Below are positions 18,353 to 62,870 of a DNA stretch of 64,000 bases, piece after piece. The notes beneath the pieces are model-generated. The model worked only from the letters and a program-made list of their open reading frames with translations. It did not search any database and had not been told where the DNA came from. Each line of letters opens with the position of its first letter. The stretch's first letter is position 1. Made by a program: the position numbers and the translations under genes. The DNA is from a virus. The stretch spans positions 19,033 through 83,032 of IMG/VR virus record IMGVR_UViG_3300030101_003058; one strand, written 5' to 3'.

Positions 18353-19089
18353 TTCCCACACCCCACAGCAGAATAAGCCCCACAAGTATACGAGAAAGCA
18401 ATACTCTCGCATTCCTCACGCAAACTATCGAGACTCCCGTAATTCATAATGACATCATCAGCAAGTCTTGAGAATTCTCCAAACTGTTTTTCAGAATCGT
18501 GATCAGATGCTACATTGAATTCTGTTGTGTCTCTTTGGATTCCAATAAGGATTCCATTGTCTTTCACCCAAACAGCTTCGTGAGCAAATCTTACATCAGG
18601 CACCAACAGCACTCTATCAAGATTCTGTTTCATTACAGTTTCAACAAAAGAAACCCAAATGTTTTTCCCGAAATACCCTTGCGCCCATTCAGTGCCTAGT
18701 TTTTGCAAGCAAAGTCTCGGGGACGCTTGGAATCGAATCACAGGACTCAACCAATTACCAGAGACACAGAAGGATTCGTTCAGAACTTCCTTCAAAGCCG
18801 CTACGGCATTCTTGAGATCACTTCGGCTGTCTAGGTGTTGTGCAAACATATCCGCAATAACACACTCAACGATGTCCAAGTGCAATTCACAGTCAATCAC
18901 ACGATCCTTTCGCTTTCCATAGAGTTCCTCATGAGACCACCCAAAGATGCGTCCGAGGAATTCTTTTAAAGGTGTGGCAAAGGCGTACTCTAGTGTTTTG
19001 TACCCGTGACCGTTCAGGTAGTCTGCGATATACTTTGCACTCTGCCCTTTCCCCGCACGAGCCTTACCTGAGATACCTATGACGTTCAT
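18349..19089 (-). CDS. deoxynucleoside monophosphate kinase
   Basis: Encodes 246 residues, opening MNVIGISGKARAGKGQSA, a P-loop (GKARAGKG) typical of T4 gp1-like dNMP kinases, which phosphorylate dNMPs to dNDPs for phage DNA synthesis. Overlaps the deaminase start and shares a base with the upstream stop. A later CVSGNW and VRFA region fits the family. Confident in family, less so in substrate range. Confidence 0.8.
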   Translation of the reverse strand: MNVIGISGKARAGKGQSAKYIADYLNGHGYKTLEYAFATPLKEFLGRIFGWSHEELYGKRKDRVIDCELHLDIVECVIADMFAQHLDSRSDLKNAVAALKEVLNESFCVSGNWLSPVIRFQASPRLCLQKLGTEWAQGYFGKNIWVSFVETVMKQNLDRVLLVPDVRFAHEAVWVKDNGILIGIQRDTTEFNVASDHDSEKQFGEFSRLADDVIMNYGSLDSLREECESIAFSYTCGAYSAVGCGK

Positions 19090-34562: not shown

Positions 34563-37500
34563 TTGAGTAACGAGAGACACGTACTGAAGCCGCAACCGGG
34601 ACCACAAACAGATTTCCTTAAAGCCGATGAAACTTATGTTTTCTACGGCGGTGGTGCTAAGTAACACTGGTTCCACCTTAAAAACACCTGTCTAATCGGG
34701 GAAACCTACGGTTGATTTATCAACTAGGGCAATCCTGAGCGAATATCGTAATCAATATAAACTCTAAGATTTATCTAAGGAGAAACAGAAATGCCAGACA
34801 TTAAGCCGATATACGGTTACCCAAACTATTCAGTATCTTCGGATGGTGTTGTTTGGAGCAACATTACGGGGAAGCCTGTAACTGAGTATATTACCGAATC
34901 TAGCCCCACTGTCAAAAGGGGTTCCGGTTACCATAGGGTACAGCTTTACAAGAACGGTAAAGGTAAAAAGTTCTTTGTTCATCGTCTTGTAGCGTTAGCC
35001 TTTATATCAAACGATGACCCAGAGGCCAACTGCGTTAACCACAAAAACGGTAATAAAGCAGATAATTCTGTGGAAAATCTTGAGTGGGTTACACACCGCC
35101 AGAATGTAGATCACGCAGTTGAAACAGGTCTGCAACTCAAAGGCGAGGCAGTAGGCACTTCCATCTACGAGGAACAAATGGTTCACAAGGCTTGTCAGAT
35201 GATTGCTCGGGGTGATTTATCACTTCAAGACATCTCTGATGAGACGGGACTTGGTTACCACACAGTGTCTGATCTGAAGAATCGGCGCTCATGGAACCAT
35301 ATCACCGAACAATATGATTACGATAAGGCCAAGAGACTACCGAGGTCGCGCAGAACTGCGTAAGATAGTAGGGTAGGCTGCAAGTGCAGCCGAAACGGCA
35401 GGAACGTGTTTACACGTTAAGATATAGTCCGATACTCGGGGAAACCCGAGAGTGACCTCACGAGTCACATAACAGCCACGGGTGGTGGCAAGAGTTGGGC
35501 CATACTTGCAGATAATCTCAAGTACATACATGACCCAAATTATTTCTCAGTGTTCTTCAGGGAAACCACGACCCAGATAGAATCTGGACTCTGGCCCGAG
35601 GCCCTGAAGATGTATGAACCGTTCTTGAAATATCAGAGCGGCCCAAAGAAAGGTAAACTTCTTCCCGGTGTCAAAATCCGAGATAAAGACAAAACAATAA
35701 TCTGGCCCTCGGGTGCCAAGACACGTTTCAGTTACCTTCAGAATGACCGTGATGCTAACCAGTGGTACGGTACGGAGCTTTCTCGGGTGTATATGGACGA
35801 GTTCCAGCATTTCTCCGAAGTGCAGTTTACCGTACTTCGTTCGCGTCTGCGTTCTAAAGCTAAGTTCCCATCTGCAATGCGCTGTACAATGAACCCAGAC
35901 AGCGGACACTTTGTTCTTGAGTTTATCCGAAGATATCTTGACGAAGATGGTTATCCTATCAGGGATTACTCAGGTAAACGCGCATGGTTCATTATGCAAG
36001 GCGGGGATATCTATACGGATTGGGATTTTGATGCTCTGCAAGAAAAGTTCCCAGATCAGACACCACAGAGCTATACGTATGTCCCGTCGGTGCTCTCTGA
36101 TAACCAAGAGTTGTTAAAACTTGAGCCGGGATATGCAGATATCCTTAAGTCTTTGCCTGATGTAAAACGCAGGCAGCTTCTGGAAGGTTGTTGGTTCGTG
36201 AGCGACAACAATGCGATGTACTTTGATCGCACTTGGTTACACAGGATAAACTCTGTCCCTCCAAATTGTAAAGCAGTCCGCGCATGGGATAAAGCATCTG
36301 AGGAACCGAACCCTTCCCTCCGACATCCTGACTACACTGCATCTGTTAAGATGTACAAGGATAAGCACGGGAATTACTATTTGTGTGAGGGCACAAGGTT
36401 CCGCAAGCAGTCTGGTGAACGGGATATGATGATTCTGAATCAAGCAGAGCATGATGGTAGGGATTGCTACATTGTGTTTCCGATAGATCCGGGATCTTCT
36501 GGAAAATCTGAGTTCCGACACTCAACTAAAACATTTCTGGAAGAAGGCTTTGTAGTAAAGCGTGACCCTATGGCCCCGACAAAACCGAAGGTACTGAAGT
36601 TTGAGCCATTTGCAACAGCGGCTCAGAACGGTCAAGTATATTTGGTTGAGAAGGAATGGGATTCTGATAATCTCAAGGCTTATTTGGATGAGCTTGAGTC
36701 ATTTACAGGGGAACGTTCGAATGCTTCAAGAAAAGACGATTAACAACTTTGTTACCACAGCAAACCCAGTCGTCTATAAACTCCTTTAATTGCTGGAAAC
36801 TCCAGTCAGACTTTGAGTAGGATATTGCACGGTAACGTAGCAACGAACCCTGAAAACCTCAAAGGTATGGACAATCAGCAGACAATAGTGTAGACTCTGT
36901 AAGTAGAGATATAAATTTATTTACGGAGGAATTATTTTGGAAATTAAAAAAGTAAGAGGTTTTGAAAACTATTATGTGAGTAAAAACGGCGATGTGTTTT
37001 CTACATGGCACGGGACCATGAAGAAAATGACCTTACAACTTCATAAGAGCGGTTACTACAGCATTCGACTGTCTAGAGGGTTGCGGGATTACCAAGGTTT
37101 TATGGTGCACAGGCTTGTAGCAGAAGCCTTTATCGAAAACCCGGAAGATTTACCTACCGTAAACCACAAAAATGGTATTAAAACTGACAACCGTGTTGAG
37201 AACCTTGAGTGGATGACATATAAAGAAAACAACCGCCACGCATGGGATATTGGCTTGTGCGATGGTCGCCGGGGTGTCAACAACCATTTCTCTAAAATAT
37301 CAGAGGGTGATGTTCGAACTATTTGTGAGCTTTTGCAAGAAGGTAAGCAGAGTAGACAAGAGATTGCCGATTGTGTTGGTGTCAAATACAACATAGTCAG
37401 CTCTATTGTGGAACGTAGGGATTGGGCACACATAAGTCAGGACTACGACATCCCAAAGCCGCGTAAGATTGCTAAGAAAACTTCTGACGATGTTGCAATA

Positions 37501-37947
37501 GAAGTCTGTAAACTTCTCAATCAAGGTGTTCGTAATAAAGACATTTGCAAGAAGCTGCAAGTTAATGCAGGTTTTGTTACGTCTATAAAAATCGGTAGAC
37601 GTTATAAACATATTTCCAAAATATATTTACACTAAGTTTCAACGACCATCGAAAGCACACGAAAGTGTAGTTAGTAGAGTAGGCTTAAGCAAGCCGAAAC
37701 TAGGAGAGGAGTCTTGAAAGACTCCTAAGATATGGTCTGATCTGCATAGAGATATGCAGCAGCACTTAGAGTGCGGGGAGAGCGTAGCGAACTCTCCTGA
37801 ACATCAATGTGGGTAGATGCAACAGCATCAGCATTCAACAGCCTAAGCCGAGAAAAAGTAATCCCCCAATTCTCCTTAGGCGAATTTTCCAGTAACAGTC
37901 CCACAGCTTTCAAAACACACAAGGATTCCGTAGATTACTACGAATAA
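34563..37947 (+). CDS. terL: terminase large subunit, three exons split by two group I introns
   Basis: Exons 34563-34658, 35481-36740 and 37810-37947 join in frame to 497 residues. The start is TTG after GGGAGGTGTTG. Walker A (FYGGGA + GGGKS) is made by the first splice. Walker B is RVYMDEFQHF. In the C-terminal RNase H-like nuclease, acidic residues lie in RAWDKA and in KDD + WVDATASAF, which the second splice joins. The protein cuts concatemers and powers DNA packaging into the prohead. Unspliced RNA would stop at 34662-34664, so it depends on splicing. Confidence 0.9.
34659..35480 (+). other. group I intron 1 in terL (Walker A site)
   Basis: The 822 bases begin after U (GCU) and end in G, as group I introns do. 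An S-type core element AAGATATAGTCCGA is at 35419-35432, with paired elements around 34690-34735 and a hairpin ACTCGGG/CCCGAG near the 3' end. It carries an HNH gene. Sequence differs from introns 2-4, so it is a separate type. Confidence 0.85.
34791..35363 (+). CDS. HNH homing endonuclease of intron 1
   Basis: Encodes 190 residues. NUMOD4-like start (IYGYPNYSVSSDGVVWS), HNH core (HRLVALAFISN, CVNHKNGNKADNSVENLEWVTHRQN) and a helix-turn-helix C-terminal part (LSLQDISDETGLGYHTVSDL). Starts with ATG after AAGGAGAAACAGA. It should cut intronless terL at the P-loop codons to drive intron homing. Confidence 0.88.
   Translation: MPDIKPIYGYPNYSVSSDGVVWSNITGKPVTEYITESSPTVKRGSGYHRVQLYKNGKGKKFFVHRLVALAFISNDDPEANCVNHKNGNKADNSVENLEWVTHRQNVDHAVETGLQLKGEAVGTSIYEEQMVHKACQMIARGDLSLQDISDETGLGYHTVSDLKNRRSWNHITEQYDYDKAKRLPRSRRTA
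36741..37809 (+). other. group I intron 2 in terL (nuclease site)
   Basis: 1069 bases; 5' exon ends in U (GAU), intron ends in G. Core pieces shared with introns 3 and 4: AATTGCTGG-AACTC near 36790, GACAATCAGCAG near 36870, TTCAACGACC at 37638 and AAGATATGGTCTGA at 37727-37740. Carries an HNH gene. Confidence 0.88.
36937..37635 (+). CDS. HNH homing endonuclease of intron 2 (TTG start)
   Basis: Encodes 232 residues from TTG at 36937 after GGAGGAATTATT. NUMOD4-like start (RGFENYYVSKNGDVFS), HNH core (HRLVAEAFIENP, VNHKNGIKTDNRVENLEWMTYKEN), then two HTH-like repeats (residues ~120-160 and 185-225). A hairpin (36899-36905/36918-36924) touches the ribosome binding site, likely limiting translation. 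Confidence 0.88.
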   Translation: MEIKKVRGFENYYVSKNGDVFSTWHGTMKKMTLQLHKSGYYSIRLSRGLRDYQGFMVHRLVAEAFIENPEDLPTVNHKNGIKTDNRVENLEWMTYKENNRHAWDIGLCDGRRGVNNHFSKISEGDVRTICELLQEGKQSRQEIADCVGVKYNIVSSIVERRDWAHISQDYDIPKPRKIAKKTSDDVAIEVCKLLNQGVRNKDICKKLQVNAGFVTSIKIGRRYKHISKIYLH

Positions 37948-44571: not shown

Positions 44572-46688
44572 ATGGCTAGTGTTTTCACTATTGAGGACAT
44601 TGTTGACGTAAATATTACGCTCGGTGATCGTCCCATTGCCCAAAGCAACTTCAGCACTCCACTGATTCTAACCGCAGATGCTCCATTTGCACCTGATCGT
44701 ATTCTTACGGTTACTGGTGTAGACGATATGACATCTGCTGGTTTTACAGATGGTGATGCTGCTTATGAAATGGTTGCTCTAATTTTCGGAGGTGATAATC
44801 CGCCTCGTGAAGCAATCATTGGTAACGTGGACGTAACTGGTACAGAGACTTACATTGAAGCTCTTGCAGCTATTGAAGCTGAAACTACAGATTGGTTCTT
44901 CATTCTTGCAGATACTCATACAGAAGCTGAGCAGGAAGCTCTGGCGCAATACGCCGAAGCAGAACGCAAGATGTATATTACGTCTTCTTCCTCTGCTGAT
45001 ATTCCTGATGGCACTGCTGGAAATCTTCTGGAGACGTTTCAGGATCTTCAGTATGACAATACTCTGCTTTGGCCTCACGCTGATGCTGATACTGTTTATC
45101 CTGAAGGTGCTATTGTAGGCGCTATGGCTGGTCTTGTTCCGGGCAGCTCTACTTTGCACGGTAAGACTCTTCCGGGTGTCCCAACAAACAAATGGACACG
45201 TACTCAGGCAAACTACATTCAAGACAACAACGGTTTCCAGTACGTTATGATCGCTGGCGTTGGCTTTGGTCTGGATGGCAAGGTTGTCTCTGGTCGATTC
45301 TTTGACGTTACTCGTGGCGCTCTGTTCACCGAAGCCCGTTATATTCCTCTAGCGGCATAATCTCGAAAGAGTTTATGAAAACCTCTCTAATTGCTGGGAA
45401 CTCTAGTTAGGTCTTGAGTAGGCTACTGCATGGTGACATAGCAGCGACCCCTAAAAATCTCAAGAATATAGACAATCAGCAGGAAAGATTGTATACTCTA
45501 TAAGTATAGACACAAATTACTTATGGAGGAATTGTCTTGGAACTTAAGCAAATTGAATACGCGCCTAGATACTACGTGTCTAGTGCTGGTGATGTTTATA
45601 GCGACTGTGGTACAGAACGTAGAAAACTTAATCCTTGGTATAGTAAATACGGTTACTTGTTTGTAACCCTATGTGCCGAAGGTGGTGTTGAGTTTAGGAA
45701 ATCTTGTCACAGACTTGTAGCAGAAAACTTTATTGATAATCCAGAAAACAAACCATACGTTAATCATATCAACTCTGTTAGAGACGACAATCGGGTTGAG
45801 AATCTTGAATGGTGTACTCAGAAAGAAAATATCCATCACGCTTTGGCGAGTGGTAATTTCACACCTACAGGAGAGAATAACGGAGCAAGTAAGCATTCTG
45901 AATCTACAATTGTGAAAGTTTGCCAGTTGCTAGAAAATCCCGATCTGAACAACAAAGCTGTGGAAGGCCAAACTGGCGTTTCTGCGGCCCTAGTCTCTAA
46001 AATACGGAACGGACGTGCGTGGTTGCACATATCATCGGATTATAAAATAAAGCGTAAAAATCGACCGGCACTAAGCAGAGAGTCTATTATTCAGATTTGT
46101 GAACTCATAAACACTGGTGTTCCTTACAAAGAAATATCGCAGCGTTTTGATGGCTATCCTGTTCGCTATATCAGAGAAATAGCCAACAAGACGCATTGCA
46201 AAGAAATTTCAAGACAATATATACAATAATCTTCAACGATCAGCCCTTGTGGCGTAGGTTCAAGTGAACCGAAATGGGAGGACTCGTAACAGGTAATGCT
46301 GACGAGTGTGATATGATCTGGTCTGCATAGAGATGTGTAGCTGCAAGTAATGTTGCGGAGGCGGAGTAACGACCCGCCTTGAACACGAACGATGGAAGAA
46401 GCACTGTTTGGGTTGCTTAAGCGCCGCTCAGACCTCGGAAGTAAAATTTCATACGATGCTGTTGGCCTTACAGTAATTGAGGCTGTAATCTACGAACAAC
46501 TTAACTTGAGGGTTGCAGAAGGTTTCTTGGCGGCTAACCCAGCACCAACAGTAATCATGCCTAGTCTGGCGAATATTCCAGATAATGACAAGGCTAATCG
46601 TGAACTCAATCAGGTTGAATTCCAAGCGGTGTTGGCAGGTGCTGTGCACTATATGCAACCTGTTCGCGGATATTTGACCCTCAGTTAA
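44572..46688 (+). CDS. tail sheath protein, two exons split by a group I intron
   Basis: Exons 44572-45339 and 46392-46688 join in frame to 354 residues. The join FTEAR + MEEALFGLLKRR restores a sheath C-terminal domain (KISYDAVGLTVIEAVI, ending RGYLTLS). Without splicing, frame one stops at 45358 after YIPLAA. Sheath protein polymerises around the tube and contracts at infection. Confidence 0.85.
45340..46391 (+). other. group I intron 3 in the sheath gene
   Basis: 1052 bases; 5' exon ends in U (CGU), intron ends in G. Shares with introns 2 and 4 AATTGCTGGGAACTC near 45395, GACAATCAGCAG near 45470 and TTCAACGATC near 46233. The S-like element is GATATGATCTGGTC at 46310-46323. Carries an HNH gene. 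Confidence 0.87.
45537..46229 (+). CDS. HNH homing endonuclease of intron 3 (TTG start)
   Basis: Encodes 230 residues from TTG at 45537 after GGAGGAATTGTC. NUMOD4-like start (APRYYVSSAGDVYS), HNH core (HRLVAENFIDNP, YVNHINSVRDDNRVENLEWCTQKEN), then two HTH-like segments. A hairpin (45500-45506/45518-45524) abuts the ribosome binding site. Confidence 0.88.
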   Translation: MELKQIEYAPRYYVSSAGDVYSDCGTERRKLNPWYSKYGYLFVTLCAEGGVEFRKSCHRLVAENFIDNPENKPYVNHINSVRDDNRVENLEWCTQKENIHHALASGNFTPTGENNGASKHSESTIVKVCQLLENPDLNNKAVEGQTGVSAALVSKIRNGRAWLHISSDYKIKRKNRPALSRESIIQICELINTGVPYKEISQRFDGYPVRYIREIANKTHCKEISRQYIQ

Positions 46689-47711: not shown

Positions 47712-47968
47712 ATCGTCAAACAAGACGCATGAAGAAACTCTATGAAGCAATCGACAGAGACACTTCATTAGAGCAGATGGAACTTCTTGTGTTCAGACCC
47801 GTCTTTGCTGAACATAGTTCTGTGACATTGACAGATTTGCTTAATAGTACATTAGAGTTCACTTTAAAAGTGAATGAGTTTCTTGATATTAAAGAGTCGA
47901 TTGAAGAGGAGCATTCGAAAGAAATGGAAGCTGCTCAGAAGAAAAATATGCCGAGAGGAGGTCGCTAA
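47268..47968 (+). CDS. tail assembly chaperone, frameshift fusion (GT)
   Basis: After decoding CCT-TTA a -1 slip resumes at 47672 and stays open to 47968, giving 233 residues (135 + 98). The added part is basic, then helical (KKLYEAIDRDTSLEQMELL) and ends PRGGR. Its stop overlaps the tape measure ATG. The second frame could also start at ATG 47729, but no good ribosome binding site is there. Confidence 0.7.
47666..47672 (+). promoter_or_regulatory. -1 ribosomal frameshift heptamer
   Basis: C CCT TTA in frame zero is a canonical X-XXY-YYZ slippery heptamer, 39 bases before the zero-frame stop TAG at 47709-47711. The shifted frame is free of stops from here to 47966. Confidence 0.75.
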
Positions 47969-50869
47969 TGGCTGAATCGGATAGAGTGGCGGGTATATAC
48001 TCAGAGGTTCAATATAGGTTTGACCCAAAGAGTATAAAGACGCTACGGAAGTTCAAAAGGGATTTAATGGAAGTCAAGGATAACATACGTGCTATCAAAA
48101 GACTTTCAAAAGGTAATGTTAAATTAGGCTTTAGTGCAAAGCAAGCCAAAGTATCTCAACAGGTACAAAGGGCTACTGAGAAGACCGCTAAAGCATCCTC
48201 AGATGAAGTTGAAAGGTCAGCAAAAGTCTGGCGAATGAAAGAGAAGATTCTCAAGAACCAAGCAAGGGAAGCAAGGTTGCAAAAGAGGTCTTCACAGATT
48301 GCTGAGAATTCTCAAAAGAAACAACTTGCGATGGAATCTAAGATTGCTGCTCAGAGGGCTAAGATGGCTCGTATGGGTGGCATGGGGATGCAGCGAGGGA
48401 AGATTACGCCAGCATCTCTAGGACGCATCAGAAACGCTCAGGAGAGGCTCAACAGGGCTTATCGTGACGGTAGTATTTCTGTGAGTCAATTCAATACTCA
48501 GTCTCAGAGATTGACAGGGATTCTTCAGAGGCAGACTCAGGCTGCACAGCGTACTAGCATGAGCTTTAACCAGATGCGTTCGGCAATCGCAGGGGCAACC
48601 GGGGCATACAGTGGATTTGCTGCTGGTGCTGGTATTAAGCAGATTGGTGGTCAGTTCGAAGATGCTGCAATTATGCTTGAGACAGCCTTTGGTAGTTCTT
48701 CGGAAGCTCAAGAGATTATGGGATTTCTGATTGAGCAATCTCAAAGACTCGGCGTGGGGGCTGTGGAAGTTTCTAAAGGCTTCGCCAGATATTCATTGGC
48801 CGGTAAGAGAATGGGTTTTACCAATGAACAGTTGCGTGAGCAATTTCTTGGTATAGCAGAGGCTTCGCTCGTGTTCGGCCTAACCCAACAAGAGATCACT
48901 GGCACTATTCGTGCGATGGAACAAATGGCTTAATAATCAATAACTTGAAGGTCATTTAAAACTCCTTTAATTGCTGGGAACTCTAGTTATACTTTAGATA
49001 GGATACTCTGTGGCGACACAAGAGCGACCCCTGACAATTCTAAAGGTATAGACAATCAGCAGGCAAGCATGTATACTCTATAAGTATAGACATAAAATTA
49101 CTTATGGAGGGAATTGGTTTGAATATTACAGAAATAAGTGGGTTTGAAGATTATCTGGTTTCTGACTGCGGCAAGGTTTACTCGACAAAATTTAACAGGT
49201 TTAAAGAGAGGAAATTGACGCCCGATAAGAACGGGTATTTGACAGTTTCATTATCACCCGACGGTGGCTTAACACGCAAGACCTTTAAGGTGCATAGACT
49301 GGTTGCCCAAGCCTTTATTAAGAAAGATATAGATGAGCTTGAGGTTAATCATTTAAACGGAGTGAAATCAGATAACCGTGTCGAAAATTTAGAGTTGGTC
49401 ACGCATTCTGACAATATGAGTCACGCATCTTCCACAGATCTTTTACACAAAGGCGAGATGGTTTCTCAAAGCAAGTACACAGAGAAACAAATCAGAGAAG
49501 TCTGCCGGTTGTTGCGAGACCCCACAATTTTCATTAGGGAAGTTGCAGAGGCCACAGGTGTTTCATATTCTATCTGTAGTAGTATTTACAACGGTCAGAA
49601 ATGGAAGCATATTGCTGAGGAGTATGATTTTCCCGGTAAAAGGCCACGAGGTCGGACTGGCTCTCTGAGCGATGAAGATGTTGTTGAGGTGTGCCACAGA
49701 CTCAACCGTAAGCAAAAGATGACACAGATAGCTAGAGAAACCGGATTGTCGTACTACAAAATCTTACGGGTAAAGAACAATACCACTTATTCTGAGATAA
49801 CAAATCAACATTTACATGAAGCTCCAACGGCTATCGAAAGCACATCTTCGGATGGAAGTGAGTAGAGTAGACCCAAGCGGGTCGAAACGGGGAGAAGGGT
49901 AGGAATACTCTTAAGATATAGTCTGATCTATGTGGAGACACATAGCTGCAAGTAATGTTGCGGGGAGGGTGTAGCGAACCCTCCTGAACATATATGTCCA
50001 AGGGGCAGGTCATGAGTGAGGAATTGAAACTCCAACTCGGTGACCGTATGCCAGCCGTGCTGGGTTTGGCCGCAGATGCTATGGGGCAAACCACAGCAGA
50101 ATTTCTTAAAAATATGGAAAAGGGCTTGGTGAAATCGGAGGAGTTTCTTCCGAAGTTCACTAAAGCTCTCCGTGAAATGGCTGCTCCGGGTCTAGACAAG
50201 GCATTTAAGACGATGAACACATCGTTCAAGCGTCTAACCCAAAACGCCAAACTCTTCGTCAAAGCATTATTCGAGAGTGGCATTGGCGATCTTTTCACAA
50301 GCATATTCAATACTCTCTCGAACGTATTCCAGATAATGTCTCCGGTAATCTCATTACTCGGCGGACTAATCACGGCTGTACTCAAGCCAATCTTTTACGT
50401 TCTTGAAGCAATCACAGATGCCATTCTATATATCACCAAAGCTTTAGATGAAGCTCTCGGTGGTAAGCTGAACGAGTATATGGCCATGATTGGCCAGATT
50501 GGTGGCTTCCTGTTGTCAATCTTTGGCAAACTAGCGTCTGTAATTGGATGGGTTGTGAAAGGCATTGGTAAACTCTTTAGAATGCTCCCAAGTGTTCGCT
50601 TTGCAGGCTCTATGAGCAAAGCAGAAGGTGCTAGTGGAATGATGGCTAGAGCATCCCAAGCTGTTTCTGGTGCTGCTTCTAAGGCCGGACAAGTGGGTTC
50701 TAAAGCACTCAACAGTACAGCCTATAGAACAACAGCGGCTGGTGTTGGGGGTGCAGAGCTTTACCAACAAAAAGTAGCCGTAGAATTCACAGGCGAAGCC
50801 AGAGACAACCTACGACAAAACAAGAGAGAATCTACAGTAAGAACCATTAACACTAATTCGAGGCCGTAA
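47968..50869 (+). CDS. tail tape measure protein, two exons split by a group I intron
   Basis: Exons 47968-48930 and 49997-50869 join to 611 residues. The join AMEQMA + SKGQVMSEELKLQLGDRMPA restores the conserved tape measure motif (QM-SKG-x-EEL-x-Q-GD-x-P). The first third is a basic coiled coil (Lys/Arg/Gln), the middle and end have hydrophobic helices (FTSIFNTLSNVFQIM; IGWVVKGIGKLF). It sets tail length and is ejected with DNA. Quite short, so a short tail (about 100 nm at 1.5 angstrom per residue) is inferred. Confidence 0.87.
48931..49996 (+). other. group I intron 4 in the tape measure gene
   Basis: 1066 bases; 5' exon ends in U (GCU), intron ends in G. Close relative of introns 2 and 3: AATTGCTGGGAACTCTAGTTA near 48972, GACAATCAGCAGGCAAG near 49050, AAGATATAGTCTGA at 49913-49926. 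Carries an HNH gene. Confidence 0.88.
49119..49865 (+). CDS. HNH homing endonuclease of intron 4 (TTG start)
   Basis: Encodes 248 residues from TTG at 49119; an ATG at 49104 overlaps the GGAGG and was rejected. NUMOD4-like start (SGFEDYLVSDCGKVYS), HNH core (HRLVAQAFIKKD, EVNHLNGVKSDNRVENLELVTHSDN), two HTH-like repeats (FIREVAEATGVSYSICSSI; MTQIARETGLSYYKILRV). A hairpin (49080-49086/49099-49105) abuts the ribosome binding site. Confidence 0.88.
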   Translation: MNITEISGFEDYLVSDCGKVYSTKFNRFKERKLTPDKNGYLTVSLSPDGGLTRKTFKVHRLVAQAFIKKDIDELEVNHLNGVKSDNRVENLELVTHSDNMSHASSTDLLHKGEMVSQSKYTEKQIREVCRLLRDPTIFIREVAEATGVSYSICSSIYNGQKWKHIAEEYDFPGKRPRGRTGSLSDEDVVEVCHRLNRKQKMTQIARETGLSYYKILRVKNNTTYSEITNQHLHEAPTAIESTSSDGSE

Positions 50870-53877: not shown

Positions 53878-54384
53878 ATGGCTTATGATTTTGCATTAGA
53901 CTCCGATGGTGGAGATTTGGTGATTTCCAAAGGTAAGTTTGGGTTTACTCAAACTGTCAGGGAAGTGTTGAGACAGCGAATGTATATCACATTCAGAACA
54001 TTCAAGGGTGAATGGTTTCTCAATACAAACTTTGGTGCTTACGACAAAGAACTCTTTTTGAACAAAGGTGTTACCAAAGAAGTTCTCGATTCCTACTTCA
54101 TCTCAATCATTAATAATTTCCCAGAGGTACAATCTCTACGTTCTTTTGATGCAACGTATGATGTTGCTTCTCGTGTTTATTCAATGACGTTTGCTGTTGT
54201 TGCTGATGGAACCACAGGTGTTTACAAGATTGATCTGACACCTCCGGGGGTTGAAGTAGCATATCCTGATCCTTCTGGTATCTTTGATGTAGATAACCAG
54301 TGTGACTTCCCCGATATTGATCAGACCAATGCTTATTATGAATACCTGAATATTACCCTTGCAACAGACAAACGCTGGCTTTAG
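53878..54384 (+). CDS. baseplate wedge protein (gp25/Mu gp46-like)
   Basis: Encodes 168 residues. ALDSDGGDLVISKGKFGFTQTVREVLRQRM and LNTNFGAYDKELF match the gpW/gp25 and DUF2634 type. Holds the inner baseplate and starts the sheath. ATG after AAGGAGGTAAC. Confidence 0.85.
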   Translation: MAYDFALDSDGGDLVISKGKFGFTQTVREVLRQRMYITFRTFKGEWFLNTNFGAYDKELFLNKGVTKEVLDSYFISIINNFPEVQSLRSFDATYDVASRVYSMTFAVVADGTTGVYKIDLTPPGVEVAYPDPSGIFDVDNQCDFPDIDQTNAYYEYLNITLATDKRWL

Positions 54385-54399
54385 AATTAAGAGGATAAC

Positions 54400-55884
54400 A
54401 TGGCACAACTAACCGAATTTGGTTTTGAAAGAGATAATAGGACAGATGTTACAACAAGGCTCAATAATAGTTTCAGAAACAAGTTCGGCGCTAATCTTCT
54501 GCTTACTGATGATTCTATTGCCGGACTCCTAAGGTCTGTTATTGCAGAGCGTTCTCTTGAGTTTGAAAAGCTGCTTGAAGATGTTTACTACAGCCGTACG
54601 CTGAATGGTGCTGAAGGTATTGCCCTTGATGATGCGGCAAGTTACTTTGGATTCATCCGAAGAGGACCACAGCCAAGCTCAGGTGTTGCTCATATTGAAT
54701 TTGTGGACAATGGAACTAACCTTGGAACCAACGTAGTCCCCACTAATACTTTTGCAGCAAGCAACGGCCTCACTTACGCTGTACAATCTGGTGGTACTCT
54801 CAATACCAACATCACTGGTGCTGTTATTGATGTTAACCAATTGTCTCCCGGTGATTATGAGTTCTTCATTACCAACACAGTGAACGGTGGTGTTTCTTCT
54901 GATACATTTACTCTTGCTGGTACTGATGATCCTTCGGTTCAAGCGTTTGCTCTTGAGATTGTTTCGTTTGTTCTGAATAACACCGAAGGTAATATTGCGT
55001 CAGTCTTTGAAGATGCTGGTATTGCTTATATTGGCTACGCTTCTTCTGAAGAATTCATTGGCTTGACACAGCCGATCTATTTTGAATCTGCCGATCTTCC
55101 AACAGGATTCACGTATCACTCAGGATATAACGTAGAGGCAACTGTTGCTGGTTTCAATACTCTTGAAGTAGATGGCATCACGAGTTTCTCTAATGAGTTC
55201 GATGGGTATGTTTCTGCAACAAATACAACAGACTTTAACCCCGGCTCTGAGAATGAAACTGATGCAGAGTTTCGACTGAGACTTCAGACAGCACAATTGA
55301 GAACACCAGTAGGTACAAGAGATTCTTTGGCAGAAGCCTTAGATGCTGTTGAGAACGTTATCTCTTATCGAATCTATGATAACCCAACCCCTCTTGATAG
55401 ACCAGAAGCAGATGCCTTGACATTCAATGCTGTTGTTCGTGGTGGTACATCTTCAGATATTGCCAACGCAATCTATGACAACAAACCGTTGAACGTTGGT
55501 ACATCAGGAACTCGATTGTTTACTGTTAGTACAGCCGATGGTCAAACCGAAGACATCTTCTATTCAGAAGCTGAAGAATCCGAATATGATCTCCAGATTA
55601 CTTACGTTGTCAATAATACAACTCCGCTGAGTTCAAGAGAAACTTCAGACATCGAGGATTCTATCACGGGTCTTGTATCATCGCAACCGATTGGACTTGG
55701 GGTGAGCAACAGTCAGCTCTCTAGCGCCGTTCTGGTGGCCCTTCCTGCTGGAAGACTACTGAGTGTCGGGGTGGATGTCAAACGTCCCTCTGAAGGCTCC
55801 TCAGCGTTCTCTCAGCGTGATCTTGAGTTGGACTTTGATCAGTATGCAACGATTAACTCTTATACTTATGTGAGGACTACATGA
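54400..55884 (+). CDS. baseplate J-like protein (Mu gp47-like)
   Basis: Encodes 494 residues with the baseplate J layout: an N-terminal helical part, then VAHIEFVDNGTNLGTNVVP and NETDAEFRLRLQTAQL. It forms wedge dimers with the gp48-like protein next door. Highly Thr/Ser/Asn-rich. Confidence 0.88.
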   Translation: MAQLTEFGFERDNRTDVTTRLNNSFRNKFGANLLLTDDSIAGLLRSVIAERSLEFEKLLEDVYYSRTLNGAEGIALDDAASYFGFIRRGPQPSSGVAHIEFVDNGTNLGTNVVPTNTFAASNGLTYAVQSGGTLNTNITGAVIDVNQLSPGDYEFFITNTVNGGVSSDTFTLAGTDDPSVQAFALEIVSFVLNNTEGNIASVFEDAGIAYIGYASSEEFIGLTQPIYFESADLPTGFTYHSGYNVEATVAGFNTLEVDGITSFSNEFDGYVSATNTTDFNPGSENETDAEFRLRLQTAQLRTPVGTRDSLAEALDAVENVISYRIYDNPTPLDRPEADALTFNAVVRGGTSSDIANAIYDNKPLNVGTSGTRLFTVSTADGQTEDIFYSEAEESEYDLQITYVVNNTTPLSSRETSDIEDSITGLVSSQPIGLGVSNSQLSSAVLVALPAGRLLSVGVDVKRPSEGSSAFSQRDLELDFDQYATINSYTYVRTT

Positions 55885-58868
55885 GCGTAGATTATACTAA
55901 GGCTAATCCAGATATTGTTCAGGAGACTAAGGATTTAGTCTTCGGACAATTCTCGGAATCCAAGAACGTCCAGTTGTTAGTAGAGTTGATTGCAGAAGAA
56001 GCCAAGTCTTATGAAGAAGTTGCTGAGAAAGTATTCACATCATTTCTTCTGAGCGAAGCTACAGGATTTGCTTTGGATTCTATCGGTGAGTTCATCAACT
56101 TCCCGCGAGAGGGACGCTCTGATGATGCTTACCGGACAGCCTTGGTTATTGCTGCGATTGGTTCTGGTTCTAGTATCACAAGAGATTCTATTGCAAACCT
56201 GATTGATATTGTTACAGGTGGTATTGGCGGTTACTTTGTTCAAGGGCGATATCACGACCTCTATATCTATCTTCAAGATGCTTGTGTAGAACGTAGCGTT
56301 GCTCAAGAATTCATTGACAAGTATCTCCCCACAAACACACAAGCGTCTGTATTGTTTGAATCAGGAACATCCTTTGGTTTTGAGGGGAATGATCTTGCAG
56401 GTGGATTCGATAAGGTTCGTCAGCAAGCAGGGGAAGGCGAAGCGTTTCTTCAGTTTCCTGTAGCAGAAGCCGTAACCTTTCCTGAGATGATTCTCCCGAG
56501 AGCATTTGAGTTTACAGCAGATAACACATACGACTACAGAACAGTTGAAGAAGTTAATCTTAAAGAATCTGTTGTAGGTGCTGTGTGGGATATTCCGAAC
56601 ACCTACGAAGCTGGTGATGTTCTTGCTGCTTCTATCCGAAATAATTTAACTCAGGATACTTTTGTTAACTCTTATGTTGTTCAGAGCACACCAGATTCTC
56701 AAAAGGAAGTGTCTGAGTTTATCTCTAGGTTAATTCTTGAAGTTGGTGCATCTAGCATCGAGAATGTCTACACAGATAATACAGTAGGTTATAAAACTTA
56801 TCTTGGTTATGATGAAATAACAGACCCTTTATTGTTCAATAGTAGAAACAGTGTTGGTACAGAGTATGACACGGTTAACAATAAACTCATAGAGATTGCA
56901 GCAGATAACGTCAGAAGTGTCTACGACGACTCCGGTAATTTCCTGAGAGTTCTTAACGAGCAACCTAGCACCAACTTGCTTCCTTGGGGCAATTACATTG
57001 AAGGTAGTATTAATGGTGATTGGGTTGTTACAGGATCTCCTGATGGAACATACATTAGTAGTTCTGTTGAGTTACTTGACAATGTTGGTTTTACAATATA
57101 CTCGTTGACATCGGGTAATTTTGTCCAAGCTTCTAAAGATATTACTGTAACGACCGACAGAGAGCACACGTTTTCTTTCTATTTTTTACCGGGAAGTCTT
57201 ACATACACATTAGCAATTGATGGCAAAGAACTTGTGTTCAATTATCAAGATGCTGATGACCCGATCAGTGTTGTGAGCAACGATTTCGATGAAGTGTTTT
57301 CCGAGCGTGTTGAGGCAGGTAATTCTCTTATCTGTATTCGTGTTTGGGTCACAACAGTTCCATCAACAACAAACGTCACAGCCTCTATAAAAGCCGATGC
57401 TAATTTAGGAGCTTCAACGGATTTCTTCTTGACGTGTGCTCAAGTAGAACCTTGGCATACAGCAACATCCTATATCCCAACAGCAGGCGCTTCACAAGAT
57501 CGTGCTCAGGACTTCTTTAGTTTCTCAGAAGATCCTTCTGTTGTAGGTTTTGTGAATAAACACAGTGTACAAGTGCAAGCACAAGATTACGATGGATTCT
57601 CAGCATGGTCTTCTATTGAACTCTCTGGTCTAACCAAAGGTGAGATTGAAGTTCCTGAGGGTGAAACTTTCTTACCTAAAGAATCCACGCCGTACACTAT
57701 TGAACAAACCGTTGCTGCTGATGGTTGGTTTGATGGCTTTGGTCCAACCGGAGTTGTCTACTATGATGATGCTTACACTGATGCTGGTGACTTCTGCACA
57801 AGAGTTTCTCTGACAAGCAGAGACATCCTTGGGTATCTCACAGGACCAGATGATTCTGCTGAGCAGTTTGAGTATGAGCTTGATTCTAAGTTCTCTGAAA
57901 CTCTCGGATTTACTTTTGACAGTGCTACTCTGGCATCAAGACCTCTACAAACTGTAGAAGAGTTCACATCATTCCGTGGTCCTGAGTGGGATGTTTCTCT
58001 GGCTGGTATTCCGACAAGCTACGGTCTTGCTCTGAGAAGCCCAGATGCTCTGCCGATGTATCAGAACTTTGCTACAAAAGAGATTAAGGACCTCCCGAGA
58101 ACTTATCTTGAGCTTCTTATTGAAGATCCAAGTATATTTCAGCAAGGCAGTAATAATGTAGATGCTTTCGATATTGAGCTTCCTAATAAACCTTACTATT
58201 TCGAAGTTGCTCTGGATGATGCACCCAATGCACCTGCTGTAGATACTCTGTTGTTCTCACAATCGTATACAAAAGTAGATCGTAATCTTGCTGATGATGG
58301 CTCAGGTACAATCAAGGGTTCCATTCTTTCGCTCTACGTATCTACATTCTACAACAGCGGTACTTCAGATTACACAATCGAAGTGAAGTTGTCTGAGAGT
58401 GTTCTTGATCGTGCGATTGCTTCGAATGGTACTGAAACAGATTCTTTGTTCTATACAATCGAATCCATACCTTACTCTGAAACTGCTGCTGATCTCACAA
58501 GTCTTTCTGGAATAACCTTTGGTGTTCTTGTAGATCCAATTGTGAAGAACTACAGAGTTTATGTGGACGGTGTTGCGTACAACGATCCTAGTGCTGGATT
58601 TGCTCAAGTAACTTCTGTAGATGGCCCTGTACAACCCTCTGGAGATTCTGAAGTGATTGTCGGGGATGTGTATTCACCAATTGAATCTGACATGGGTAAA
58701 TGCTCCTTTGGCGTTGCTGGATACACAGATAACTCAGAAGCAGAACCAGCAACTCTCGAAGATTACGGAAGAATCACTTGGGTCTATTCCAAAGACGCTC
58801 TTAGATTCACCTCACAACTTCCCCAGAATACCGTAGACATATTCGGAAGAATAATTCCACAAGCCTAA
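55881..58868 (+). CDS. tail protein I/DUF2612-like wedge protein with long fibre-like extension
   Basis: Encodes 995 residues. Residues 1-200 fit the Mu gp48/DUF2612 wedge protein (LDSIGEFINFPREGRSDDAYRTAL). The remaining 800 are beta-rich and Thr/Ser/Asp-rich with several strand repeats, probably carbohydrate-binding or lectin-like domains. The usual family is about 200 residues, so the extension is unusual. Confidence 0.7.
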   Translation: MSVDYTKANPDIVQETKDLVFGQFSESKNVQLLVELIAEEAKSYEEVAEKVFTSFLLSEATGFALDSIGEFINFPREGRSDDAYRTALVIAAIGSGSSITRDSIANLIDIVTGGIGGYFVQGRYHDLYIYLQDACVERSVAQEFIDKYLPTNTQASVLFESGTSFGFEGNDLAGGFDKVRQQAGEGEAFLQFPVAEAVTFPEMILPRAFEFTADNTYDYRTVEEVNLKESVVGAVWDIPNTYEAGDVLAASIRNNLTQDTFVNSYVVQSTPDSQKEVSEFISRLILEVGASSIENVYTDNTVGYKTYLGYDEITDPLLFNSRNSVGTEYDTVNNKLIEIAADNVRSVYDDSGNFLRVLNEQPSTNLLPWGNYIEGSINGDWVVTGSPDGTYISSSVELLDNVGFTIYSLTSGNFVQASKDITVTTDREHTFSFYFLPGSLTYTLAIDGKELVFNYQDADDPISVVSNDFDEVFSERVEAGNSLICIRVWVTTVPSTTNVTASIKADANLGASTDFFLTCAQVEPWHTATSYIPTAGASQDRAQDFFSFSEDPSVVGFVNKHSVQVQAQDYDGFSAWSSIELSGLTKGEIEVPEGETFLPKESTPYTIEQTVAADGWFDGFGPTGVVYYDDAYTDAGDFCTRVSLTSRDILGYLTGPDDSAEQFEYELDSKFSETLGFTFDSATLASRPLQTVEEFTSFRGPEWDVSLAGIPTSYGLALRSPDALPMYQNFATKEIKDLPRTYLELLIEDPSIFQQGSNNVDAFDIELPNKPYYFEVALDDAPNAPAVDTLLFSQSYTKVDRNLADDGSGTIKGSILSLYVSTFYNSGTSDYTIEVKLSESVLDRAIASNGTETDSLFYTIESIPYSETAADLTSLSGITFGVLVDPIVKNYRVYVDGVAYNDPSAGFAQVTSVDGPVQPSGDSEVIVGDVYSPIESDMGKCSFGVAGYTDNSEAEPATLEDYGRITWVYSKDALRFTSQLPQNTVDIFGRIIPQA

Positions 58869-58878
58869 GGAGTTTTCA

Positions 58879-59673
58879 ATGGCGACCAGACCAGACGTAT
58901 TACCTCAGTTGGCATCTCTTGATGTCAATCTCCCGAATACGGGAAATGTTAATAAACTAAGACCACCCCTCGAAGTTCGTGAGACTGGTTATGATTACCT
59001 TCAGAAACCTCCTGCTGAAGAGTTTAACTGGATTGTTAATAACATCTCTGAATGGATTGATTATCTAGATAGTCTTACACGAGATCAAGGTATCACAGAG
59101 GTAGCAAGTAAGGATCAAGCAGAGCAAGGGGTTGCTACAGATGTTCTTATGACCCCGCAGAGGACTCTACAGAGCATCCAATTCAATGCTGTACCTCCGG
59201 GTACGGTGATGCACTTTGCAGCCTCTACAGCCCCCTCTGGATGGCTCTATTGTGATGGTTCTGCTATCTCTAGGGCTACCTACAGCAGACTCTTTAGTAA
59301 TATTGGCACAACCTTCGGTGCGGGTGATGGAAGTACAACCTTTAATCTTCCTGATCTTCGCAATGAGTTTATTCGGGGTGCTCAGCCGGGATCTCGTGAG
59401 GTTGGCTTTAGTGAATCTGATGCTACCCGTTCGCACACTCACACGGGTACAACTGATTCAGCCGGTTCTCACTCACACAGCTACTCAAGACCAAACAACA
59501 CAGACCGTGCTGAGATTGGTAACGGCAGTACGTCGTGGTTTACCTACGGTGGCGGTAGTGATGGTACTACAGCATCTGCTGGTGCACACGTACACAGCTT
59601 CACAACAGATGCAACAGGTGGTTCTGAGACACGTCCACAGAACGTTGCACTTCTGCCAATCATTAAAATCTAA
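58879..59673 (+). CDS. tail collar domain protein
   Basis: Encodes 264 residues. Residues ~105-170 are a phage tail collar domain (PPGTVMHFAASTAPSGWLYCDG, TFNLPDLRNEFIRG). The C-terminal SHTH, SHSH and HVHSF pairs may bind metal, as in fibre tips. N-terminal part anchors to the baseplate. Confidence 0.88.
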   Translation: MATRPDVLPQLASLDVNLPNTGNVNKLRPPLEVRETGYDYLQKPPAEEFNWIVNNISEWIDYLDSLTRDQGITEVASKDQAEQGVATDVLMTPQRTLQSIQFNAVPPGTVMHFAASTAPSGWLYCDGSAISRATYSRLFSNIGTTFGAGDGSTTFNLPDLRNEFIRGAQPGSREVGFSESDATRSHTHTGTTDSAGSHSHSYSRPNNTDRAEIGNGSTSWFTYGGGSDGTTASAGAHVHSFTTDATGGSETRPQNVALLPIIKI

Positions 59674-59684
59674 GGAGGGTTGCT

Positions 59685-60026
59685 GTGTTTACCTACGAAG
59701 TCGTAATGGTAATCATCGCAATAGTAGGTGGTCTTATGGGAGTCATTGGAACATTCTTTTGGAATAAGGTTAAGAGTTTTGAGGAACAACACAAGGATGT
59801 GCGAAGGGAAATCTCAGAGGTTGACGAGAGATTGTCCACAAGGATGAACGCCATTGAAAACCGTGCAACTGCGATTGAATCCTCTACTGTTACCAAAGAA
59901 GATTTGTTTCAAGCTATCACCACTATTAATGAGCAAGCCTCTAAACGTGATGAGAAACTCTATGGAAAACTGGAGGCTCTCTCAAAAAAGGTTGAAGATT
60001 TACGCTACGACAGCAAGAGAGAATAA
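59685..60026 (+). CDS. membrane-anchored coiled-coil protein, lysis-associated
   Basis: Encodes 113 residues from GTG at 59685 after GGAGGGTTGCT. One transmembrane helix (6-26), then a charged coiled coil to the end. Located directly before a holin-like gene, so an accessory or antiholin role is possible. Confidence 0.6.
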   Translation: MFTYEVVMVIIAIVGGLMGVIGTFFWNKVKSFEEQHKDVRREISEVDERLSTRMNAIENRATAIESSTVTKEDLFQAITTINEQASKRDEKLYGKLEALSKKVEDLRYDSKRE

Positions 60027-60273: not shown

Positions 60274-62280
60274 ATGGTACAGAAAGTTAATTTAGAAATG
60301 ACAGATGGTGTTCAAGAGAAGTTTGACACGGTGACTGAGGCGCTGGATAAGCGCACCATTTATGTGGGTAGTGTGGCGGAGGATTTTTCCGGGCTGACAG
60401 GAATCCCAGAGGGACGATATTCTGTTGCGGACTTCCATCTAGGTGGTAATGCGAAAATCAGACCGCTGGGCGGCGGTCTATTTGTATTTAAGTCAGGACT
60501 TGCTAAGTTAAACCATAACGGCGGCACTGTAATATCACCATCCGTTCCCAGCCTTAGTGCACAGAGTGGGGCGACGAATGCTGATAAGTTGCAAAACTTT
60601 TTAGACGGGATGGGAGAGACTGATCCGAGCGGAACAGGTTGTTTTGTGCGGATCGGTTTTGAAAAGATAGAGGTCGAGTTCTTTGGGGCTAAGGGGGATG
60701 GTCAATACTACGACTCTCCGGCAGTTTCTGGGGCGTGCAATCTTGCGAAAGAGTACGTCGATAACGCAACTGGGTTTGGTCAAAACGCTGGGGCAACAGT
60801 TAAGTTCAATCGAGGCAAATACAGGATTTCTTCAGCTACATCTATAAATACAGGCGTGACGCTTGAAGGCATTCATTCTGGTTTGGTGAATGAAGGTGAC
60901 GCGGCATCCTCCGGAACCGTCCTTCTGTTGTCAGACACGAAGCCTGACGGAACCGCGTGGACAAGTTCGGATCTTATTGATGGAAACACAATAACCAAGC
61001 GTGTCATGTTCTCTGTAGATGGCGCTGGCCCAATCAAGATTCAAAGCCTTGGGGCCATAACAGAAAACAACGACAGCGTTGATAGCGTTTTTGTCTTAGC
61101 TGGAAACGGTTACCCAGTCCCACGAGAAAGGTCTGGAATATCCCAAGGCGTATTCAGAGATGTCAGAGTGTTTTCTTTTGAGTCGGTCATACGCGGATCG
61201 CGGATCGAAGACCTTGTGGTGGATAGCTGCGGCTTCGAATTTAATAGATGGTTTCTGGATGTAGTGCCTACAGACGCTGCTGCCTCGGACATAGGTTATG
61301 CCCGAGATATAATGATCACAAATACCAGATTCTTTGAGCTTTTCGGCTTCGTCAAAGGCTTACCGGATAGAACTGAAATGCGAGGAGTTACATTATCGTC
61401 ATGCTTCCTATCAATTCTGAGGGGCGGGACTTACAGGATCTTCAATGTTGCGGAAGGTGCCATTGAGGGGCTTCATTTTAGTTCCTGTGATTTTAGTAAG
61501 CCCGACACGTCATCAGGTGATCTGTTCAGGCTGGGGACGGCAAGCGGATCAATTAAGGACGTATCTTTTTCCTCTTGCAAAGTCTCGGGACTCGGAATGC
61601 TAAGTTATGATGCATCTGTAACCGGGGATCAAATTTTTGATGTAGATTTTTCATCCACTGTTTTTAAAGACTCTGAAACAATTTTGGGCGCAGGTATTAC
61701 AAAAGGGCTATCCGTATCTGGGTGTTCTTATTCGGGCCTATCTAAATTCCTGTTTTCCGGAGCTGGGCTTTCTTTTGTAGGCAACAGTTTTGAGAATAAT
61801 GCATTAGGCTCGGGCTTTGACTTTGATATTGCAGACGCCTCCAATGTAGTTGCAACAGGCAATACATTCAGGGGAGAGGCCACAATAGCTTTCCGTGGCT
61901 CCCTGTCAAACATTAAAGTTTTTGGGAACGTTAATGGTAAAGATTACCTCACATACGAAACGGCTGCGCTTCTTGAGCAGCCGGGAAACTGGGGTTTAAG
62001 TGCGTCTATTCCGCCATTCTGCTACAGGGATGCGGCTGGAAATGTAAGGTTTGCCGGGTGGGTTACAAGCCCTGCAACGAGCGCATCACCAGACGTTGCA
62101 ATCTCTCTTCCGGCAGGCTATAGCCCAAAATTTAATGTTCGGCAAACAATATGGTCTGCCGTTGATGGTGTGGACGATTATGTGATAATCGCGGCTGGCG
62201 CTGGGGGAAGCGAGTTTACGGTGAAGTTTAAGAAAGGGACAGCGCAGACATTTGATGTGTCAAGTTTAAACTACTCTTAA
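60274..62280 (+). CDS. tail spike with pectate-lyase-like beta-helix
   Basis: Encodes 668 residues. A short N-terminal adapter (DTVTEALDKRTIYVGSVAE) is followed by a beta-helix from about residue 130 (VEFFGAKGDGQYYDS; repeated short strands with Asn/Ser/Cys), typical of capsule or O-antigen depolymerases. The C-terminal 80 residues are a separate strand-rich module. Base composition is richer in GC than its neighbours, hinting at horizontal exchange. Confidence 0.8.
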   Translation: MVQKVNLEMTDGVQEKFDTVTEALDKRTIYVGSVAEDFSGLTGIPEGRYSVADFHLGGNAKIRPLGGGLFVFKSGLAKLNHNGGTVISPSVPSLSAQSGATNADKLQNFLDGMGETDPSGTGCFVRIGFEKIEVEFFGAKGDGQYYDSPAVSGACNLAKEYVDNATGFGQNAGATVKFNRGKYRISSATSINTGVTLEGIHSGLVNEGDAASSGTVLLLSDTKPDGTAWTSSDLIDGNTITKRVMFSVDGAGPIKIQSLGAITENNDSVDSVFVLAGNGYPVPRERSGISQGVFRDVRVFSFESVIRGSRIEDLVVDSCGFEFNRWFLDVVPTDAAASDIGYARDIMITNTRFFELFGFVKGLPDRTEMRGVTLSSCFLSILRGGTYRIFNVAEGAIEGLHFSSCDFSKPDTSSGDLFRLGTASGSIKDVSFSSCKVSGLGMLSYDASVTGDQIFDVDFSSTVFKDSETILGAGITKGLSVSGCSYSGLSKFLFSGAGLSFVGNSFENNALGSGFDFDIADASNVVATGNTFRGEATIAFRGSLSNIKVFGNVNGKDYLTYETAALLEQPGNWGLSASIPPFCYRDAAGNVRFAGWVTSPATSASPDVAISLPAGYSPKFNVRQTIWSAVDGVDDYVIIAAGAGGSEFTVKFKKGTAQTFDVSSLNYS

Positions 62281-62368: not shown

Positions 62369-62416
62369 ATGAGATTCTTCAAGCCTAGTGAATTTGCCCA
62401 CCCCTGTTGCAAATAG
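62369..62416 (+). pseudogene. possible truncated M15-type endolysin start (15 codons)
   Basis: ATG at 62369 after AGGAGTGTTTAG opens MRFFKPSEFAHPCCK and then stops. Words like 'FFKPSEF' open many phage M15 peptidases, and the spot (holin-like, then this, then spanins) is where an endolysin is expected. Too short for proof. Confidence 0.25.
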
Positions 62417-62453
62417 ACCCGTAAAACACCCAAAGAAAACCCAAGGAGACATT

Positions 62454-62870
62454 ATGGCATTACCAATAGTAATCAAGACACTCTTCAAAAACTTCAAAGT
62501 AATTTCAATTGCTCTTGCTATTGGTGCTGCTGTCTCCTTTGGAACAGGCTTGTACTTCCACGGCAAGAAAGTGCAATCCTTGCAATCTGAAATAGAGCTT
62601 TTGAAATCCGAAGCAGAAGCAGAGCGAATCGTAAGAGAAATTGTAGATGATGCTTCTGTAAGAAATCAAGAGCAACGTAATAAGATCGAACAAGCATCCA
62701 GCGATGCCCAACGAGAGATGAGAGAGGCCAAAGATGAAGATCAAAGTGTTCGTGAGTATCTTTCTACTGATATTCCTGAGCGGGTGCAGTTGGCTCGTGA
62801 AAGAGCGCGTTGTGTATCGCTGCCCTATACCTGCAAATCTAATGCAGCAGAACAAGATACCAGTGAATGA
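62454..62870 (+). CDS. inner-membrane spanin (Rz-like)
   Basis: Encodes 138 residues from ATG at 62454 after AAGGAGACATT. One N-terminal transmembrane helix (13-32) and a long charged coiled coil reaching into the periplasm. Contains the nested o-spanin start, as Rz/Rz1 do. It fuses inner and outer membranes at lysis. Confidence 0.82.
   Translation: MALPIVIKTLFKNFKVISIALAIGAAVSFGTGLYFHGKKVQSLQSEIELLKSEAEAERIVREIVDDASVRNQEQRNKIEQASSDAQREMREAKDEDQSVREYLSTDIPERVQLARERARCVSLPYTCKSNAAEQDTSE

Follow-up and report, generated by a model that had tools for sequence, protein, structure and literature searches.

Within a window of 64,000 nucleotides, the whole stretch of DNA analyzed here (positions 19,033 to 83,032 of the IMG/VR virus record IMGVR_UViG_3300030101_003058, which comprises 87,036 bases), the contractile-tail module was found to contain a baseplate wedge gene whose 995-residue product carries an extension of 805 residues (residues 191-995) behind an N-terminal wedge domain (Table 1). 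A sequence-only reading of this DNA had proposed a wedge protein with a fiber-like extension of 800 residues, and the very long extension was corroborated by the intact reading frame, the match of the N-terminus to phrog_4056, and independent related contigs.

A long wedge protein and its relatives

The wedge domain was recognized through several lines of homology. Residues 2-186 matched phrog_4056 ('baseplate protein', 1.8e-24), and single-sequence searches of solved chains identified Phi92 gp146 (3.2e-12, residues 2-168), the wedge 1 chains 9mjn (1.6e-8, residues 10-188) and 9cuy (0.0024; named PhiTE extended baseplate in the Foldseek listing), as well as the wedge protein 9ndy (0.0069). A six-row wedge profile also matched Pam3 gp23, 7kh1 gp17 (242 aa), and a 1019-residue chain called TmpF (7e-5). 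We take the latter to belong to a staphylococcal phage, and 7kh1 is presumably XM1, in agreement with gene number and length. It should be noted that the profile values for the Phi92 and PhiTE chains are inflated by rows from their close relatives, which makes the single-sequence values the fairer ones. The label 'DUF2612-like' given by the sequence-only reading is apt, although Pfam DUF2612 (PF11041) stayed below its gathering score (16.3 versus 23.5 bits); among the relatives, L002 passes this cut-off (26.3 bits) and L003 fails it (22.9 bits). Based on this homology, the gene encodes a gp7/BW3-type wedge protein, which would be assembled into a contractile baseplate.

The same arrangement was identified on related IMG/VR contigs from uncultured phages, with complete wedge proteins of 977 aa (L016), 955 aa (L003), and 744 aa (L002), while L004 encodes at least 852 aa, running to the contig end, and L029 covers only the last 131 aa. 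The extension is thus present in all 5 related contigs that reach the region (3 whole, 2 partial). Since L003 and L004 are near-twins, they were counted as one lineage, resulting in 4 lineages (window, L002, L003/L004, and L016). Because independent contigs encode this arrangement, an assembly accident can be ruled out. Among 18 annotated phage records, the wedge protein comprises 204-282 aa in 17 and 729 aa in the remaining one; these records were hand-picked from two lists of 334 and 393 matches to cover a wide spread, with one chosen because of its annotation, and form a non-random sample with several members of one genus. A very long extension is thus unusual among these annotated relatives. 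Whether most family members share the extension therefore depends on the range considered, as this is the case inside the clade (5/5 contigs) but not in the wider family (17/18 short). In the 17 records behind the loci, the open frames matched by the wedge profile span 758 (L002), 958 (L003), 855 (L004), and 982 aa (L016), compared to 199-282 aa in 12 others; the L005 record stops inside the J gene and contributed only a J-like match. Five of these 17 records had supplied profile rows, and at least one phage is present twice.

Searches with the whole protein or its parts returned few relatives. Out of 50,697 phage records, 334 matched the full protein, none over at least 80% of its length, and residues 191-309, 310-560, and 550-995 each lacked a match at E 0.01 in this set, from which the window's own or a near record may be excluded. 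No relatives were retrieved among the viral contigs by a single-sequence search with the whole protein, and none were retrieved among the genome contigs. L002-L005 were found by searching the viral contigs with the J protein. In the same contigs, the wedge profile yielded 7 loci (3 of this clade and 4 with short wedge proteins), and the C-terminal, whole-protein, cassette, and Collar profiles yielded 3, 4, 3, and 4 loci, respectively, mostly on the same contigs, with L016 and L029 being new. Furthermore, the viral structure library holds an entry of 995 aa (A0A516MK86) that is 95% identical to the window protein in the Foldseek alignment; therefore, a near-identical virus has very probably been deposited.

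The start of the wedge gene overlaps the 3' end of the upstream baseplate-J gene by 4 nt, and the J-like protein is expected to be the partner of the wedge domain. The order initiator-like, J-like, wedge, and fiber gene in the window is identical in L002 and L003, and a Collar-domain gene occupies the equivalent position in L002, L003, L016, and L029. For the initiator-like protein, the Pfam Sheath_initiator match (E 0.045) was below the cut-off. The best PHROG match of the pectate-lyase-like protein is phrog_27346, which has no function assigned; this product is possibly a separate receptor-binding protein. Two short genes around it (59685-60026 and 62388-62870) showed weak Rz-spanin-like matches, the first of them matching a phage lipoprotein family slightly better. 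Neither Rfam at gathering thresholds nor a tRNA scan revealed a match in the window.

The structural module of the window also encodes 4 related HNH endonucleases. One of them (45537-46229) lies within an insert (45340-46391) between 2 cleanly separated parts of the tail sheath gene, as residues 1-257 of the L004 sheath protein match 44572-45339 and residues 258-355 match 46392-46685; in L004 and L005, the sheath gene is uninterrupted. This insert looks like a mobile intron. A second HNH gene (49104-49865) separates the parts of the tape measure gene (47968-50869); an Rfam group I intron match (49762-49945) reached 28.5 bits against a gathering score of 50. At this position, L005 carries a related HNH gene, and the L004 gene is likewise split but shows no match to the HNH genes of the window. 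The other 2 genes of this family (34791-35363 and 36937-37635) flank a piece of the large terminase that begins at profile position 200 of 642.

Table 1. Coordinates of the wedge gene, its parts, neighboring genes, and the Erwinia fusion (window positions unless stated otherwise).
Feature	Position	Strand	Basis
Sheath-initiator-like baseplate protein	53878-54384	+	phrog_4233 (no function given), 2.5e-29; phrog_120 'baseplate wedge subunit', 1.3e-13
Baseplate J-like wedge protein (gp6/BW2 type)	54400-55884	+	Baseplate_J, 33.4 bits (cut-off 21.1); phrog_6, 4.8e-33
Wedge-extension gene	55881-58868	+	ATG, 995 aa, intact frame, no internal stop
Predicted wedge domain (gp7/BW3 type), residues 1-190	55881-56450	+	phrog_4056; Phi92 gp146; further wedge chains by profile
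Connecting part, residues 191-309	56451-56807	+	Alignments; present in window, L002, L003, L004, L016
Optional cassette, residues 310-549	56808-57527	+	Alignments; absent as a block from L002
GTA_spike_fiber domain (NF048003), cassette core, residues 358-542	56952-57506	+	54.5 bits (curated cut-off 36)
C-terminal part, residues 550-995	57528-58865	+	Alignments; conserved end VDIFG; strand-rich around residues 772-914
Collar-domain tail-fiber protein, next gene	58879-59673	+	PF07484, 86.7 bits (cut-off 24); phrog_4465 and phrog_12846 at N-terminus
Pectate-lyase-like tailspike candidate	60274-62280	+	PF12708, 2.6e-4 (below cut-off); phrog_24092 'tail fiber protein', 7.9e-11
Erwinia Henunavirus fusion of wedge, Ig-like, and GH5 cellulase parts	L041 3587-5776 (OP480062.1 24086-26275)		

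Modular layout of the extension

Alignment of the related proteins revealed an extension that is modular rather than evidently fiber-like, and more divergent (27-49% identity) than the wedge domain, for which the window protein shares 64-66% identity with L002, L003, L004, and L016. The connecting part is 29-42% identical to the window in all compared rows; three strands, a helix, and two strands were predicted for about residues 231-308 (pLDDT 57-81 over 231-310), and no significant family, phage, or solved-chain match was obtained for residues 191-309. The following block is 33-38% identical in L003, L004, and L016. In L002, approximately 10 residues replace residues ~310-549 while both flanks are retained, and it is because of this absence of a whole block between retained flanks that we refer to residues 310-549 as a cassette. 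The C-terminal part is 27-49% identical by block, among the rows reaching that part, and lacked significant matches to families, phages, solved chains, or folds. A DUF659 match in the window protein was below the cut-off and rejected.

Three trees were built to judge gain versus loss of the cassette, and their pairings differ: the wedge-domain tree grouped the window with L016 (81/87) and left L002 unresolved, the whole-protein tree grouped it with L002 (87/89), and the Collar-protein tree with L003 (88/88), all below the starred support level.

At the core of the cassette, the NF048003 alignment spans profile positions 1-181 of 182 and exceeds the curated cut-off, as do the corresponding regions of L003 (51.9 bits) and L016 (44.2 bits), while L002 has no match. 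This domain was detected in 3 of the 17 records, namely those of L003, L004, and L016 (2 lineages), and within the 87-kb record, no second match besides residues 358-542 was obtained up to E 1. Furthermore, a profile of 3 cassettes matched the solved chain of RcGTA Rcc01080 (4.6e-5).

The description of the extension as fiber-like fared less well. Collagen-like GXY repeats, the only shaft type tested separately, do not exceed a run of 2 triplets, although many fibers lack such repeats, and the only PHROG match within the extension is phrog_5939 ('tail protein', residues 341-550). While this match would fit a true trimeric tail fiber or tailspike fused to the wedge, we consider such a fusion highly improbable: besides the short GXY runs, candidates for a separate fiber and tailspike are encoded downstream, and the gp7-type subunit is present in one copy per wedge in Milano and XM1 (PMC10811340; PMC10457771; all papers cited by PMC identifier are represented here by excerpts), which does not provide three chains.

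Possible glycan recognition and structural roles of the extension

We slightly favor reading the protein as a wedge scaffold with an accessory domain for glycan recognition at its C-terminus. Together with the J-like protein, the first 190 residues would form part of the wedge core, and the C-terminal 805 residues would form a string of largely strand-rich parts that projects from the baseplate at its rim. The cassette, which carries the GTA head-spike-fiber domain with its putative jelly-roll, carbohydrate-binding-like fold, would most likely make weak contacts, through several copies, with a glycan on the host surface, and this binding may hold the phage on the surface while the separate fiber and tailspike find their receptors; the parts flanking the cassette would most likely brace the wedges. 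We infer the rim position, the bracing, and the weak, repeated glycan contact from the papers on Milano, E217, Pa193, Pseudomonas phage K8, and AlgoCIS. For K8, variants of a 243-residue DUF2612 wedge protein are described to bind core oligosaccharide, whereas the unchanged protein, according to the same excerpt, does not (PMC9887876). The domain assignment adds the RcGTA head fiber, which binds the host capsule (PMC7296036; PMC10218006) and whose head-spike-fiber protein is located at the capsid vertex (PMC7296036). Glycan binding by the cassette itself would be in line with these examples.

Several observations weigh against this reading. NF048003 matched 5 of 14 control genomes, 3 of them over the cut-off, indicating a broad distribution and a function that need not be that of an adhesin in every case, and L002 manages without the cassette. 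Single-sequence searches of solved chains with the cassette gave no match, and the matches of the three-cassette profile to Pa193 gp46 (0.014) and E217 gp45 (0.019) are insignificant alone. Neighboring genes encode other candidate adhesins, the Collar-domain protein and the pectate-lyase-like tailspike candidate. Of the proposal that the wedge itself forms a receptor-binding arm, we retain a possible contact of residues 358-542 with the cell surface. In addition, the fiber of E217 (PMC10329688) and Pa193 (PMC11042391, preprint) attaches to the single-copy subunit through a loop of the wedge part and, in the excerpts of these reports, not through the jelly roll; therefore, these phages give no support for a fiber-holding extension. 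Structure prediction, the check suggested by the sequence-only reading, was of limited help, as the AlphaFold2 models of the full-length protein (8 rows; mean pLDDT 43.1) and of the C-terminal part (6 rows; mean pLDDT 43.4) were both poor, and the best Z-scores of 7 to 8 are typical for models without a clear match and common by chance.

Repeated fold matches, of the jelly-roll type, were confined to about residues 343-532. The low-confidence cassette model aligned with TmCBM61 (Z 8.5, rmsd 3.1, 123 residues); numerous further jelly rolls matched as well, including Pa193 gp46 (Z 7.5) and E217 gp45 (Z 7.3), both of which are baseplate wedge or triplex subunits. The putative identity of the cassette accordingly derives from the sequence family and not from the model. 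Since both models are poor, we do not claim a fold for residues 191-309 or 550-995; in the C-terminal model, pLDDT reached 51-76 around residues 772-914 and was poor elsewhere. The top Foldseek row, an unrelated large chain (rmsd 34.8), was set aside, and for the C-terminal part, galectin rows obtained with the model (E about 0.1) as well as archaeal filament rows obtained with the profile (0.033) were regarded as noise.

The retention of residues 191-309 and 550-995 in every compared lineage raises the question of whether the whole extension is structural, bridging neighboring wedges or anchoring fibers like the outer part of T4 gp7, with the jelly roll as a spacer only. We regard this as a possible but rather doubtful alternative. 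The wedge profile matches the 1019-residue TmpF chain, and long members are known from the subunit type: with its 1032 residues, T4 gp7 is orthologous to the 242-residue XM1 gp17, which uses a loop and its C-terminal region to anchor tail spikes (PMC10457771). Moreover, the Milano wedge proteins have globular outer domains that connect the periphery and to which receptor-binding proteins are attached, on BW2 and BW3 in this phage and on BW3 in earlier ones (PMC10811340). However, one lineage lacks the cassette as a block, which is awkward for a brace that should be essential, and the domain family of the cassette takes its name from an adhesin. A different arrangement is represented by AlgoCIS, in which domain IV of the wedge protein Alg11 contains two carbohydrate-binding modules and forms a cage around the spike, with a proposed role in attachment (PMC8894135). 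That the six extensions likewise fold down into a cage around the central spike seems improbable to us, as no AlgoCIS chain was among the solved-chain profile matches listed.

Fibers and tailspikes are the proteins to which receptor binding is usually assigned, and baseplate wedge genes tend to be passed over in host-range annotation. Known precedents include wedge proteins of great length (T4 gp7), jelly-roll wedge subunits (E217, Pa193), and a baseplate protein equipped with carbohydrate-binding modules (AlgoCIS). No case of a spike-fiber-type domain on a baseplate wedge appeared among the papers listed from the searched, mostly open-access literature. Should a wedge subunit indeed carry a glycan module that can be removed, host-range prediction ought to include wedge genes, and the window and L002 would constitute a natural pair with and without the cassette that allows for testing the step from surface contact to contraction.

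Parallels in other systems

The single long wedge protein among the sampled annotated records, from the Erwinia Henunavirus phage pEa_SNUABM_55, represents a parallel case. Its 729 residues comprise a phrog_4056 domain (residues 1-217, 7.2e-87), an Ig-like stretch (TMEM131_like_N at residues 248-333 exceeds its cut-off, whereas choice-of-anchor D and further Ig models do not reach theirs), and, at residues 378-701, a GH5 cellulase (2e-45, above its cut-off). It was matched over at least 80% in 6 of 525 matching records, all of them Erwinia phages of one kind, and the cellulase part alone matches proteins of other phages annotated as cellulase, endoglucanase, hydrolase, or tail protein. The wedge gene of Cronobacter phage EspYZU08, which is annotated as 'Glucanase', was considered as a second enzyme fusion and rejected, since it encodes 210 aa and leaves no room for an enzyme. 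The Erwinia Henunavirus proteins (729 aa; Hena1, pEp_SNUABM_01) thus share with the window protein the wedge domain and a long extension with a carbohydrate-related domain but differ in the composition of the latter, and no significant similarity outside the wedge domain was found among the matches listed. In two phage lineages, this wedge protein has thus been lengthened at its C-terminal end by carbohydrate-related modules that are unrelated to each other. This leads us to the tentative, rather speculative idea that the C-terminus of phrog_4056 wedge proteins may be a recurrent grafting point, in unrelated phages, for modules that recognize or cut cell-surface polysaccharides, in which case the wedge as the trigger of contraction might itself carry a glycan sensor. 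If true, a direct mechanical path would lead from surface binding to firing, with no intervening fiber.

The closest relatives of the wedge domain itself, such as Phi92 gp146, PhiTE wedge 1, and other phrog_4056 proteins, are encoded after a J-like gene and before a fiber gene in most sampled records, as in the window, but end shortly past the wedge domain (204-228 aa in most sampled records). T4 gp7 (1032 aa) is of the same subunit type, linked through XM1 gp17; the likeness is indirect, and no chain named T4 gp7 was among the wedge-profile matches listed. AlgoCIS Alg11 resembles the window protein in that a baseplate wedge protein possesses an additional domain, there built of carbohydrate-binding modules (PMC8894135), although it may be a different subunit and the listed profile matches contained no AlgoCIS chain. 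E217 gp45 and Pa193 gp46 (504 aa), present as a single copy per wedge, contain a jelly roll with which the cassette model aligns (Z 7.3-7.5) but are shorter than the window protein, with an insignificant sequence relation of the jelly rolls alone; their 2:1 make-up suggests that they are gp7-type subunits, as far as the excerpts go (PMC10329688; PMC11042391). Finally, RcGTA Rcc01080 shares the GTA_spike_fiber domain with residues 358-542 but is placed on the capsid vertex (PMC7296036), whereas the window protein would present this domain on the baseplate.

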